From contig MWCT01000001.1 of assembly GCA_002070185.1 (NCBI GenBank), positions 1-64,000 on the forward strand: DNA of 64,000 nucleotides, read 5' to 3'. Under the pieces are notes generated by a model, which was given only the letters and a program-made list of their open reading frames with translations, ran no database searches and had not been told where the DNA came from. Of this stretch, positions 23,066 through 50,385 are shown piece after piece. The translations under genes were made by a program, and so were the position numbers. How positions within the stretch are numbered: the first letter of the stretch is position 1; the number at the start of each line of letters is the position of its first letter. The stretch is from a candidate division BRC1 bacterium ADurb.Bin183. Its GTDB lineage: Bacteria > Sumerlaeota > Sumerlaeia > MWCT01.

Positions 23066-23962
23066 CTAATCCCCTTGAGTAATTCCCAGAATTTCTAATA
23101 TCCTGTCCATATCATCCAAATTCGAATAAGATATAACTATCTTTCCGGCGGTTTTGCTTGCAGGACGTATCTGAACGCGAGTCCCAAGCGCTCCCATCAT
23201 CCTCTCTTCTATCTCGCAAATATCCGCCGGACGGCTCGGCGGCTTTTTTTTGCCGGCGATTGATTTTTTCTCTTTCAATTCGCGGGCGATGGCTTCTGTC
23301 TGGCGCACGGAGAGATCTTTTTCGACTATCTGCGCCCAGAGTTTTGCCTGCAGCCGCCGGTCGTCAATGGTCAAAAGCGCTCTAGCATGACCCGAGGTTA
23401 ACCGCCCCACCTCCAAATCTTCTATGATTGTCGGCGGCAATTTCAAAAGCCGCAAGCTGTTTGCCACCGTCGAGCGCTCTTTGCCGACTCGCGCCGCCGC
23501 CTCCTCCTGCGTCAAACCAAACTTGACGATGAGTTCCTCATAACCCTTTGCCTCTTCTATCGGATTCAGATTTTCGCGTTGAAGGTTTTCTATCAAGGCA
23601 AGTTCAAGACATTGCTCATCCGTCGCATGTATGACCAGACATGGTATCTGGGTAAGACCCGCCAATTTTGCGGCGCGAAGTCTTCGCTCCCCCGCCACAA
23701 GCTGGAAGCCCTGCCCGATTGATTTGACAAGGATGGGCTGAAGGACTCCGCGCTCTTTGATAGATGCGGACATCTCCGCAAGTTTTTCATCGTCAAAAGA
23801 GCGGCGCGGTTGATAGGGATTGGTTTTGATTGAGGCAATGGCGATATTTTTTAGGCTCGTGCTCAAATCTGCAGCGGAGGCGTCGGGCGCCGCCGCTTTC
23901 GCCGTATATGGGAACAGAGTATCCAAACCGCGTCCAAGGGCTTTTTTCTTGGGAGAAGTCAC
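23066..23962 (-). CDS. parB: Chromosome partition protein ParB
   Basis: 298 residues. ParB/Spo0J layout: N-terminal GLGRGLDTLF-like LGRGLD motif, the ParB CTPase box with ERRLRAAKLAGL (residues 100-120), the LENLQRENLNPIEEAKGYEEL segment, a helix-turn-helix (GLTQEEAAARVGKERSTVANSLRLLKLP, residues about 150-180) and a C-terminal dimerisation domain. ParB binds parS and loads as a CTP-dependent clamp to condense the origin region. It overlaps parA by four bases. A perfect parS lies 850 bases upstream at 24826. Confidence 0.96.
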   Translation of the reverse strand: MTSPKKKALGRGLDTLFPYTAKAAAPDASAADLSTSLKNIAIASIKTNPYQPRRSFDDEKLAEMSASIKERGVLQPILVKSIGQGFQLVAGERRLRAAKLAGLTQIPCLVIHATDEQCLELALIENLQRENLNPIEEAKGYEELIVKFGLTQEEAAARVGKERSTVANSLRLLKLPPTIIEDLEVGRLTSGHARALLTIDDRRLQAKLWAQIVEKDLSVRQTEAIARELKEKKSIAGKKKPPSRPADICEIEERMMGALGTRVQIRPASKTAGKIVISYSNLDDMDRILEILGITQGD

Positions 23963-24813
23963 TGCATAACCTCCTGAGATGCTTCTGCCGCCGGGTTTTC
24001 CGTCGGTTGTGTGATTTCTGGCGGCTTTTTGAAATTTTCAATTTTTTTGATTACTTCCTCGCAGAAATTCATATAGCACTGCGCCCCAACAGAATTATTA
24101 TCATACAAGATAATGGGCCTGCCAAAACTGGGCGCCTCGCTTAAGCGGATGTTTCGGGCAATAAACGTTTGAAAGACCGCATCGCCAAAATGCGATTGGA
24201 CATCTTCTGCCACCTGCCGCGCAAGATTCGTCCGACCGTCATACATCGTGATAAGCAGCCCCAAAAGGTCGAGGTCGGGATTAAACGATGAGCGAATGCG
24301 GCGATACGTTTCCATCAGAAGCGATAAACCCTCTAAGGCGTAATATTCGCATTGCACCGGCACAAGGAGGGCATCCGCCGCCGTCAGGGTGTTTATTGTC
24401 AAAAGCCCAAGCGAAGGCGGCGCATCAATGATGATATAATCAAAGCGCAATTTAACCGATTGAATCACATGGCGCAACCGACGCTCCTTGTCATCAACGC
24501 CGAGGAGGTCCATTTCCGCGCCGATAATCTGGATATTGGAGGGCAGAAGCCACAACTGCGGCATCAGCGGATTGAGCATAATGGATTCCGGCGAAAGCGT
24601 AGAGCCGAGCAGCAGGTCATAAACAGTCATTGGAAGCGCGTGTTTATCCACCCCCAGACCGCTTGTGGCGTTTCCCTGCGGGTCCATATCAACAAGGAGG
24701 GTGCGGCGTCCCTTATGAGCCAGACATGCCGCCAGATTAATGGAGGTTGTCGTCTTGCCGACACCCCCTTTTTGGTTGGCAATCGCAATAGTAAAAGACA
24801 TGGCACAGTCCAT
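23959..24813 (-). CDS. parA: Chromosome partition ATPase ParA (Soj)
   Basis: 284 residues. Deviant Walker A motif NQKGGVGKTT near residue 14, Walker A-prime VDMDPQGN near 43 and Walker B YIIIDAPPSLGLLT near 125. ParA dimers bind DNA when ATP-bound and pull ParB-parS complexes apart. Two Met starts, at 24813 and 24801, are possible; neither has a strong binding site. The parS site ends 13 bases upstream of the first start, so ParB binding could repress the operon, as in Bacillus-like systems. Confidence 0.96.
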   Translation of the reverse strand: MDCAMSFTIAIANQKGGVGKTTTSINLAACLAHKGRRTLLVDMDPQGNATSGLGVDKHALPMTVYDLLLGSTLSPESIMLNPLMPQLWLLPSNIQIIGAEMDLLGVDDKERRLRHVIQSVKLRFDYIIIDAPPSLGLLTINTLTAADALLVPVQCEYYALEGLSLLMETYRRIRSSFNPDLDLLGLLITMYDGRTNLARQVAEDVQSHFGDAVFQTFIARNIRLSEAPSFGRPIILYDNNSVGAQCYMNFCEEVIKKIENFKKPPEITQPTENPAAEASQEVMQ

Positions 24814-24825
24814 TAAAAAACGGAA

Positions 24826-24841
24826 TGTTTCACGTGAAACA
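24826..24841. promoter_or_regulatory. parS centromere site (perfect 16-base palindrome)
   Basis: TGTTTCACGTGAAACA matches the bacterial parS consensus at all 16 positions. It sits in the parA leader, upstream of the parAB genes it serves, and should be the binding site of the ParB encoded next door. This supports a chromosomal origin-proximal location for the window. Confidence 0.95.
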
Positions 24842-46347: not shown

Positions 46348-47139
46348 ATGGAAAGCAACCAAAACGCCTTTGAACGGCTGATAGATATCATGAAGCGGCT
46401 CATTGAACCGGGAGGCTGCCCTTGGGACAGGGAACAAACCCATGAATCGCTGAAGCCCTATCTTATCGAGGAATCTTACGAGGTTTGCGAAGCAATAGAC
46501 CGCGGCGACTTTGACGACCTGAAAGAGGAACTGGGCGATGTGGCGCTGCAAATTGTCTTTCATGCCGAACTGGCAAGACGCGCCGGTCGGTTCGATATCC
46601 ACGACGTCCTCAATGGCATCTGCAACAAGCTCGTCTCCCGCCATCCCCATGTTTTCAGCAATGGCGGCGCCAAGACATCCACCGAAGTCCTCGCCCGCTG
46701 GGAAGAAATAAAAAAAGTGGAAAAAAGCGCAAAGAAAAAAGATAGAAAACCCTCTGTTCTCGACGGCATCCCCCGCGAAATGCCCGCCCTTGCCTATGCC
46801 TGCCGCATCCAAGAACGCGCCGCCAATGTCGGATTTGACTGGGACAAGACGGAGGATGTCAGGGCAAAGGTGATTGAGGAATGGCAGGAATTGGAAGAGG
46901 CGCTGAAAAGCGGCGATGCTGAGATGATAGATGAGGAATTTGGAGACCTCCTTTTTGCCATTGTAAATTATTCCCGGTTTGTGGGAATAAACCCGGAGCA
47001 ATCCCTCCGCAAGACCATCATGAAATTCCAAGATCGCTTTCGCCACATCGAAAAAAGGGCGGAGGAACAAGCAAAAAAAATTTCCGAAATGACTCTTTCA
47101 GAAATGGACGTTTTCTGGAACGAGGCTAAAAAAATATAA
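46348..47139 (+). CDS. mazG: MazG nucleoside triphosphate pyrophosphohydrolase
   Basis: 263 residues with two MazG repeats. The first has PWDREQTHESLKPYLIEESYEVCEAI near residue 25 and EELGDVALQIVFHAELA near 60; the second has VKIEEWQELEEAL-like EEWQELEEALKSGDAEMIDEEFGDLLFAIV near 175. These acidic helices bind Mg2+ and hydrolyse NTPs to NMP and pyrophosphate. The family limits mutagenic or excess nucleotides. It is the last gene before the gene-free oriC candidate. Confidence 0.93.
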   Translation: MESNQNAFERLIDIMKRLIEPGGCPWDREQTHESLKPYLIEESYEVCEAIDRGDFDDLKEELGDVALQIVFHAELARRAGRFDIHDVLNGICNKLVSRHPHVFSNGGAKTSTEVLARWEEIKKVEKSAKKKDRKPSVLDGIPREMPALAYACRIQERAANVGFDWDKTEDVRAKVIEEWQELEEALKSGDAEMIDEEFGDLLFAIVNYSRFVGINPEQSLRKTIMKFQDRFRHIEKRAEEQAKKISEMTLSEMDVFWNEAKKI

Positions 47140-47255
47140 CGCGCGGTATTAATATTTATCTTAATATAATATATATATAATATGATTAATAATAATATAG
47201 CCTGTGGAAATGTGAATAACTGGTTGCAGATTACTCAAACTATTTGCGTTAAGTC

Positions 47256-47294
47256 TGTGGATAAAAGGTCATAATTTTCCACAAATTATCCACA
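47256..47294. promoter_or_regulatory. Pair of exact DnaA boxes in opposite orientation
   Basis: TGTGGATAA at 47256-47264 (minus) and TTATCCACA at 47286-47294 (plus), with a near-match TTTTCCACA at 47275-47283 between them. The face-to-face layout is typical of DnaA assembly regions. Confidence 0.8.
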
Positions 47295-47449
47295 GGGGCT
47301 TGCTCTATGAAAATATTAATAACGTATATGGCGAATTTATCCACCGAACTAAAAGTAACCTGTGGAAAAATTTCATTTGTGAAACATGAATGTAACTCCC
47401 CATGAATGAACAGTCTCAAAAAAACAGGCAACCAATAAACACGGGATAT

Positions 47450-47470
47450 TTATCCACAGGTTTATCCACA
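47450..47470 (+). promoter_or_regulatory. Tandem exact DnaA boxes, 12-base repeat spacing
   Basis: TTATCCACA at 47450-47458 and again at 47462-47470, both plus strand, three bases apart. Tandem boxes favour cooperative DnaA loading. Confidence 0.8.
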
Positions 47471-47709
47471 GGTATAATATCGGTAACATTTATGCCCTTA
47501 AATACCTGTATTTATATTTAAATATAATAAAATCAAATGTTTATGATTTTGGTAAATGAATTTAAAAGATAGAGAAAAAGAAAGATATCCACAGGTCTGG
47601 CGTTGTTGCTTGAATGATGAAGAGCGAACATTTATATCATCATAACTGAATAGTTTTCAGAAATGAACACATAATATGGAGCCTCGAAAAAATGATTATA
47701 TAAATATCT

Positions 47710-47718
47710 TTATCCACA
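47710..47718 (+). promoter_or_regulatory. Distal exact DnaA box
   Basis: TTATCCACA about 80 bases before the J-domain gene start. A one-mismatch box, ATATCCACA, lies upstream at 47585. Confidence 0.75.
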
Positions 47719-47790
47719 GAGGATAAAAATTGACAGTAATTGAAACCATGAATTAAAAGAAACCTGTATTTTTTGATAATAAAAAGGATT

Positions 47791-48558
47791 ATGGCAGCAG
47801 AACCCACATATTATGAAATCCTCGGTGTAACGCCGAACGCCTCAGAAAAAGATATAAAAGAGGCTTATTACAAACGGGCGCGGGATCTCCACCCCGATAA
47901 GGCAAGAAACGAGGATGAAAAAAAGAAAAATGAGGCGCTTTTCGCCGATGTATCTAAAGCATATAATGTTCTCAAAGATAAAACCCGCCGCGAAGAATAT
48001 AACCATTCCATAGGCGCTTCATCCGCTTCAACCAGCGCCCCAAAGGGGAAAAGCGGAGCGGCAGCTCAACACAAAAAACCTGTGCCTTCGAAAAAAACAG
48101 AACCCGCGCGTTCAACGGAACGCACCGGCGAACGTTCGCAGATTGCAAAAAAATCTTTCACAAAGGGAATGCAGATTTTGAAATCCGGCGATGTTGAAAG
48201 AGCTGTGAAATATTTTGAGGCGGCTATTCAGAATGATGACAGCGAGGCGGTTTACTTTTATCGCCTTGCCCATGCGATGCTCCAGTCCAAAAAAAGTTTT
48301 ACGAAAAGCGTGGACTATTGCAAGCGCGCCGTAGAAATGGACCCCTATAACATGGAGTATAAACTCCTTCTCGGGGAAATCTATGAACGCGCCGGAGGGC
48401 TCAGCAGGGCAAAAGAACTCTACGAGGAGATTCTGAAATGGGATGCCACGCATGAAAAGGCGTTGAGCCGTCTCAAGATGCTCAGCGACAAATCCGGCAC
48501 GAAAGAAAAGAAATCGTTTTTTGCGGGGCTGTTTAAAAAATTAGGCGGCAAAAAATAA
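47791..48558 (+). CDS. J-domain/TPR protein
   Basis: About 255 residues from ATG 47791; AAAAGGATT precedes it. The N-terminal J domain has TYYEILGVTPNASEKDIKEAY and the HPD tripeptide (DLHPDKARNED, near residue 30) that stimulates Hsp70 ATPase. A low-complexity linker (75-115) follows, and the C-terminal half carries TPR-like repeats (VERAVKYFEAAIQNDDSEAVYF and the later KSVDYCKRAVEMDPYNMEYK). It lacks the G/F and zinc-finger domains of DnaJ. It should partner the dnaK-like gene 15 bases downstream. Confidence 0.85.
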   Translation: MAAEPTYYEILGVTPNASEKDIKEAYYKRARDLHPDKARNEDEKKKNEALFADVSKAYNVLKDKTRREEYNHSIGASSASTSAPKGKSGAAAQHKKPVPSKKTEPARSTERTGERSQIAKKSFTKGMQILKSGDVERAVKYFEAAIQNDDSEAVYFYRLAHAMLQSKKSFTKSVDYCKRAVEMDPYNMEYKLLLGEIYERAGGLSRAKELYEEILKWDATHEKALSRLKMLSDKSGTKEKKSFFAGLFKKLGGKK

Positions 48559-48573
48559 TACATAAATAATACT

Positions 48574-50385
48574 ATGGGCGGATTCATCGGCATAGACCTC
48601 GGCACAACAAACTCAGTCGTCGCCTTTTTAGACGGCGACAAACCGACGGTTATTGTCAACGAGGAAGGCGGAAGAACAACGCCATCGGTCGTCTTGTATC
48701 GCAGCGGAGGAGAAGTCATCGTCGGCGAACTCGCCCGACGCCAGCTTGTCCTGAATCCATCCAGCACCATCAGCTCCGTAAAAAGATTCATCGGAAGAAG
48801 ACTAGACGAAATTGAAGAGCCGGCAAAACAAGTCCATTACAAACTTGTGGAAGATTACGAAAATGACAGAGTCCTCATAGACCTCGCCTGGAGAAAATTT
48901 TCACCCGAAGAGGTATCTGCGGAGATTCTCAAAAAACTCCATAAATACGCCGAAGATTATCTTAGCCAGCCAATTGAACAAGCGGTACTCACCATTCCCG
49001 CATATTTTAACGACAGCCAGCGCAACGCCACAAAAACCGCCGGCGAAAAAGCAGGATTAGATGTGATTCGCATCGTGAATGAGCCGACCGCTGCCGCGCT
49101 GGCTTATGGATTGAATAAGGATAAGGCGGAAAAAATTGCCGTCTTTGATTTTGGCGGAGGGACTTTTGATATCTCCATCCTCGAAATCAATGGCAATTTG
49201 TTCGAGGTTAAATCCACAAACGGCGACACCTTTCTCGGCGGCGACAACATAGACCATGCCATATTTGAATTCATACGCGCCGAGATTCAAAAGGAAACGG
49301 GCATTGACATCATCGGCGACATGAAAGCCGTTCAGCGCGTCCGTGAAGCCGCCGAAAAAGCCAAATGCGAACTCTCCATGATTCAATCAACCACAATCAG
49401 CTTGCCTTTTATCACATCGGATGAGGAAGGACCCAAACACTTCTCCCGCGATTTGACGCGCGAAGAATTTATTGGATTAAGCATGCCGATTTTGGAACGG
49501 CTGATTCCGCCCTGCCGCAACGCCCTTGAAGATGCGGGGCTGACGCCCGCCGATATTGACCAGATACTGCTGGTGGGAGGCTCCACGCGAATCCCAAAAG
49601 TGCAGGAAATGGCGGCAGAATTTTTCGGCAAGGCGCCGCGCAAGGATATCAACCCGGATGAAGTCGTGGCAATGGGCGCAGCTATTCAGGCGGCTGTTGT
49701 CACCGGAGCCATTCAAGAAGTTCTCCTATTGGATGTTACGCCCCTTTCGCTCGGCATCGAACTGGCGGATGACGTTTCTTCAACCCTTATACCGCGCAAT
49801 TCAAGCATCCCGACCACAGCCCTGAAAAAATTCACCACCGTTGTTGATAACCAAAAAAATGTGTTCATCCACGTTCTTCAGGGCGAACGCAAAAGGGCAA
49901 GCCAGAATCGAAGTCTCGGTCATTTTCGCCTGACAGAAATCGCTCAAGCGCCGCAAGGCGTTCCGGAAATAGAGGTAAAATTCAATATTGACGCCAATGG
50001 AATCCTCAACGTCAGCGCCACAGACCTAACCTCCGGAATGCAAAAAACCGCCAGAATTGAATCTTACAGGGCGGTTAAAACAGATGATACAGAAAGGCAT
50101 ATCGAAGAGGCTGCATCAAAGCAGGAAGAAGATAAACGATATCTGGAAAATCTGCATAAAAAAGAATTTGCCCGAAGGACTTTTAACGCCGTCTCCTTGT
50201 TTATCAAAGAAAATGAAATAGACCTTGAAACTGCCGATGTATCCGGCATGCAGGAAATCTTGTTAAGCTTGGAAACCGCTATCGAGGAAAACGACTTTGC
50301 CGCAATGGAACAATGGTCGAGGACGCTTATAGATATAGGCGACCGTTATGGCGACCGATTCCGTAAATATAAAATCACGTTTTAA
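48574..50385 (+). CDS. dnaK: Hsp70 chaperone, DnaK-like
   Basis: 603 residues. Signature 1 [13 protein letters not shown] at the start, signature 2 [15 protein letters not shown] near residue 190, signature 3 [14 protein letters not shown] near 330. The substrate-binding domain begins after the interdomain linker [14 protein letters not shown] near 385. The lid is short: DnaK is about 638 residues with a flexible Gly/Ala-rich tail, which is absent here. With its J-domain partner it forms a dedicated chaperone pair. No grpE is nearby, so it may be a second, specialised Hsp70. Confidence 0.93.

Follow-up and report, generated by a model that had tools for sequence, protein, structure and literature searches.

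A predicted chromosomal replication origin away from dnaA in a Candidatus Sumerlaeota bacterium

The question raised by this locus is whether a gene-free stretch of DNA rich in DnaA boxes, placed between mazG and a J-domain/dnaK gene pair, is the origin of chromosome replication (oriC) of a bacterium whose dnaA gene lies elsewhere, as an earlier note on this DNA had proposed. The window was the whole stretch of 64,000 nucleotides analyzed, positions 1-64000 of contig C1 in a 39-contig draft genome of 3.4 Mb (G000). Among named relatives, the best matches to its J-domain protein come from MAGs of Candidatus Sumerlaeota/BRC1. From its sequence, the region 47140-47793 is very probably the chromosomal oriC of this Candidatus Sumerlaeota bacterium, and its separation from dnaA probably took place within the phylum. 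The identities that had been given to the flanking genes hold, and the region between them was correctly described as free of genes, with 0 ORFs of at least 80 aa between the end of mazG at 47139 and the ATG of the J-domain gene at 47794. The layout is as follows:

46348-47139, plus strand: mazG (TIGR00444 and PF03819), a gene that flanks the box cluster in three genera
47140-47793, no strand: predicted oriC, the whole mazG/J-domain intergenic region, based on box count against shuffles and on the same position in two other genera
47794-48558, plus strand: gene of a J-domain plus TPR protein (PF00226), whose pairing with dnaK is kept across the class
48574-50385, plus strand: dnaK/HSP70, flanking gene (PF00012, NF001413)

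The DnaA boxes were counted by scanning for TTATCCACA. Five exact boxes (starts at 47256 on the minus strand and at 47286, 47450, 47462 and 47710 on the plus strand) and five with one mismatch (starts at 47211, 47275, 47337, 47361 and 47585) were found, in agreement with the five exact and several one-mismatch boxes reported earlier. These ten boxes with at most one mismatch occupy about 510 bp (47211-47719), to be compared with a mean of 0.33 and a maximum of 3 in 2000 dinucleotide-preserving shuffles of this intergenic DNA. The cluster is the densest one of exact boxes in the 3.4-Mb genome, which elsewhere shows at most two per 600 bp. Exact boxes number 88 genome-wide, and those of C1-C4 outside the cluster fall, all except three, within called ORFs. 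Apart from the two weak boxes described below, the boxes of the cluster are:

47256-47264, minus strand: exact DnaA box, from the box scan
47275-47294, plus strand: one-mismatch box TTTTCCACA plus exact box TTATCCACA, a pair kept in G001
47337-47369, both strands: two one-mismatch boxes, 47337 (plus) and 47361 (minus), from the box scan
47450-47470, plus strand: two exact boxes in tandem, spaced with a 12-bp period; in G001 and G002 the pair is kept with at most two mismatches
47585-47593, plus strand: one-mismatch box ATATCCACA, from the box scan
47710-47718, plus strand: exact DnaA box, 76 bp upstream of the J-domain ATG, from the box scan

Concerning the distribution of boxes in the rest of the genome, TTATCCACA is in excess (88 occurrences versus 15 for the reversed word), and contig C4 (213 kb) contains 15 exact copies versus 4 outside the cluster in C1 (559 kb). 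A second box locus occurs on C4 (153834-154115), where a single box is followed by a tandem pair with a 12-bp period, flanked by a B12/radical-SAM-like gene and a ClpB-like gene. It has counterparts in G001 (C101:3941-4224, L205) and G002 (C200:18088-18369), and the distance from the single box to the pair is 261, 263 and 261 bp in the three genera, the intervening DNA being poorly conserved.

At the left edge of the cluster, beside the boxes rather than inside them and at the mazG end, lies a block that had been called almost pure A/T, a fair description, as 50 of its 53 positions are A or T. No other 53-bp stretch of the 1.45 Mb scanned (C1-C4) reaches 50 A/T. The elements next to it are:

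47148-47200, no strand: A/T block of 50/53 A/T, predicted DNA-unwinding element, conserved in G001 and G002
47178-47198, plus strand: seven DnaA-trio-like triplets (TAA TAT GAT TAA TAA TAA TAT), top hit of the BUS search
47203-47219, minus strand: two weak boxes that overlap and point the same way, ATTTCCACA (two mismatches) and TTATTCACA (one mismatch), kept in G001 and weaker in G002

From left to right, the order is thus A/T block, trio run at 47178-47198, AGCC, weak boxes at 47203-47219, and stronger boxes. The published search rules for BUS elements (PMC8287927) require three or more NAN triplets no farther than 16 bp from a box that has up to two mismatches, and are loose in A/T-rich DNA. 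Here, the search returned seven NAN motifs separated by a 12-bp spacer from the one-mismatch box at 47211-47219. The suggestion that the TAATAATAATAT run beside a box could serve as a DnaA-trio-like element is therefore consistent with these rules, and the run is conserved. For this predicted core, its conservation in two other genera is better evidence than the match to the BUS rules.

The conservation was seen in all three genera of the family (G000, G001 and G002), which carry a box cluster, an A/T block and a core of trios plus tandem boxes between mazG and the J-domain/dnaK genes. In G001 and G002 the core is found at the same place, with the A/T block, a TAATA-rich run, CCTGT(G/T)GA and a second weak box, and more boxes occur downstream of it, still between mazG and the J-domain gene. 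The cluster of G002 consists of four one-mismatch boxes and no exact one. The synteny of the three genera comprises mazG, J-domain, dnaK, glycosyltransferase, argF and argD genes, and this largely refutes the idea that the cluster is not a chromosomal origin but that of an integrated plasmid or phage. Plasmid origins can also carry box clusters with A/T repeats, and this is the point in favour of such an idea; nevertheless, the flanking genes are housekeeping ones, those examined include no replication initiator or integrase, and the probability left to it is close to nil.

Outside the family, the neighbourhood is kept in part. In G004, of another family of the same order, one contig contains mazG (18.8-19.5 kb), three exact boxes at 25.5 kb, including a pair with the 12-bp period, and parS at 52.6 kb, while the J-domain/dnaK pair is on a separate contig without boxes. 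Since G004 and the family of G000 both show them, mazG, box cluster and parS form a neighbourhood common to two families of the order; the J-domain/dnaK flank of the cluster was seen in the G000 family only. In the single contig of G007, J-domain/dnaK (847 kb) and mazG (1.76 Mb) are both far from parS (2.647 Mb), and so the mazG/J-domain position of the origin is not class-wide.

These data also bear on a possible role of the cluster for the J-domain/dnaK operon, as a promoter under DnaA control or as a site of DnaA titration (datA, DARS or DnaA-box-cluster type), with the origin elsewhere. The cluster is indeed directly upstream of this chaperone operon, a smaller conserved box locus is upstream of the ClpB-like gene on C4, and the GC skew at the cluster is not sharp. 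However, the J-domain/dnaK pair occurs across the class without boxes, the boxes of G004 accompany mazG and parS instead of J-domain/dnaK, the A/T block with the trio core lies on the mazG side, some 600 bp away from the start of the J-domain gene, and the genome offers no better cluster. A role of this kind is accordingly considered improbable. A promoter and terminator scan gave matches at chance level only.

The reading of the region as oriC is further related to the location of the partition genes, which lie in the same window:

23066-23962, minus strand: parB (Spo0J-like), TIGR00180 over cut-off
23959-24813, minus strand: parA (Soj-like ATPase), an ORF that lies directly between parS and parB, its ParA-type NCBIfam matches being below cut-off
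24826-24841, no strand: parS, perfect palindrome TGTTTCACGTGAAACA, the sole site with at most two mismatches in 3.4 Mb

The parS site is directly upstream of parA and parB and 22 kb from the box cluster; in G004 the distance is 27 kb. In bacteria, parS usually lies close to the origin (PMC4091711). Around the parS sites extracted from other families, up to 1.5 kb away, no box cluster was found. The proposal of an oriC outside the dnaA neighbourhood is supported by the density of the boxes, the A/T element, the layout shared by three genera and the sole parS with parAB at 22 kb, and it is graded as very probable. A second ParB-family protein, also over the cut-off of TIGR00180, is encoded on C5 (198541-198996, L286); a single exact DnaA box lies some 1.1 kb upstream of it, and no parS is close by.

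If the region 47140-47793 acts as oriC, DnaA produced from the unlinked dnaA gene would bind the boxes. Starting at the weak tandem pair (47203-47219), it would spread along the trio run (47178-47198) and open the A/T block (47148-47200), so that the helicase could be loaded; ParB bound to parS would afterwards move the duplicated origin.

The GC skew is the weak point of the oriC reading. It was studied in C1-C4, complete, and in parts of other contigs, about 1.7 Mb or about half of the draft genome. A skew minimum at 47 kb had been anticipated for an origin at this position. Within 95 kb of the cluster, the strand-corrected 4-fold skew was -0.24 on the left and -0.07 on the right (permutation p = 0.0001), and the best strand-adjusted single breakpoint within C1:0-140 kb was at 50 kb, partly in line with this expectation; on the other hand, the swing is broad, the best breakpoint shifts to near 100 kb over 0-260 kb, and a sharper swing was found on another contig. 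To the right of the cluster, the skew of C1 remains close to zero up to about 190 kb; it is then positive up to 285 kb, past which it returns to negative values. Positive skew was also found in G001, in the 6 kb that adjoin its cluster on the mazG side. In G007, the sign of the sampled skew switches at around 2.6-3.0 Mb, broadly where its parS (2.647 Mb) is located, and no box cluster was found at 2.68-3.00 Mb. A search for dif gave no credible site (7-9 mismatches).

The sharper swing is a minus-to-plus switch of C3 at about 130-140 kb, where the strand-neutral 4-fold skew rises from -0.27 to +0.34, the strongest change point among the tested contigs. The switch falls in a stretch (C3:129000-146000) with large unusual ORFs, including one of 1393 aa and a primase-like one. 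It can be asked whether the true origin is located there, with other or few DnaA sites, as this is the sharpest GC-skew switch; nonetheless, neither a DnaA-box cluster nor a parS was found at it, and the large unusual ORFs could mark an insertion, an inversion or a misjoin. An origin on C3 thus seems slightly less probable even than a promoter or titration role of the cluster. Both the broad swing of C1 and the switch of C3 could come from rearrangement or misassembly.

Concerning dnaA itself, the earlier note had placed it, like dnaN, away from the cluster, and both were found on other contigs (dnaA on C19, dnaN on C2, with gyrB on C9), so the cluster adjoins neither of them. On C19, dnaA adjoins a pseudopilin-like gene; no box cluster was found within 1.5 kb of it, nor any clear skew signal. 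The DnaA protein is complete and standard, with the box-binding domain present, and its closest solved structure is 8btg over the full length. Among the dnaA loci of the class that were cut out for inspection, 0 of 29 had a box cluster. In G039, from another class of the phylum, the order is gyrB (minus), dnaA (plus), five one-mismatch boxes and dnaN (plus) (L064, 1-3514). From this layout and the 29 loci of the class, it seems reasonable to interpret that the dnaA-linked origin is likely older and that its loss is common to the class. The claim that the origin moved away from dnaA finds support in these data: with one outgroup as the basis, the separation looks derived and probably arose within the phylum.

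A separate observation concerns a 1362-aa protein encoded on C2 (211918-216006; L100, 6918-11006), with TPR repeats, a C-terminal DnaA AAA+ domain (PF00308), no box-binding domain and an N-terminus that by eye resembles a CHC2-type zinc finger. Nearly every member of the class has relatives, 900-2100 aa in length, and the outgroup G039 has none at E<1e-60. One could imagine that the loss of the dnaA-linked origin, together with the gain of this giant TPR/DnaA-AAA+ protein and the ClpB-linked box locus, amounts to a new, chaperone-coupled circuit of initiation control, a speculation to which we attach a low probability.

The predicted oriC provides a concrete, testable origin for an uncultured phylum. 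It could anchor growth-rate (peak-to-trough) estimates and orient draft genomes, and it offers a contrast within one phylum between a dnaA-linked origin and origins without that link. It leaves the understanding of how origins work unchanged. No paper joining Sumerlaeota with a replication origin was found in the literature searched.

With respect to known systems, the neighbourhood rpmH-dnaA-dnaN-recF-gyrB of dnaA/dnaN-linked origins is matched by G039 as gyrB-dnaA-boxes-dnaN and was seen at none of the inspected dnaA loci of the class. The lack of dnaA/dnaN adjacency excludes the dnaA-linked subtype, not an oriC as such. The BUS, composed of DnaA boxes plus DnaA-trios, is known from Bacillus subtilis and related bacteria (PMC6669920, PMC8287927), and a survey of origins predicted such a core in 85% of them (PMC8287927). 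The region resembles the BUS of B. subtilis in its tandem boxes and in having three or more 3'-NAN-5' triplets no more than 16 bp away from a box (here seven, with a 12-bp spacer). It differs in that the boxes beside the trios are weak (one and two mismatches) and the trios are mostly AAT versus the common GAT, and opening is here predicted from the letters of the DNA. Bacterial oriC regions away from dnaA occur in E. coli and many others (review PMC4285127). As in that type, E. coli-type boxes are clustered in a short A/T-rich intergenic region, the unwinding element is on one side of the cluster and dnaA is elsewhere; the differences are the neighbours, mazG and J-domain/dnaK, and the location of dnaA, dnaN and gyrB on three other contigs. 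Origins away from dnaA have long been known, and the Sumerlaeota case adds a predicted example.
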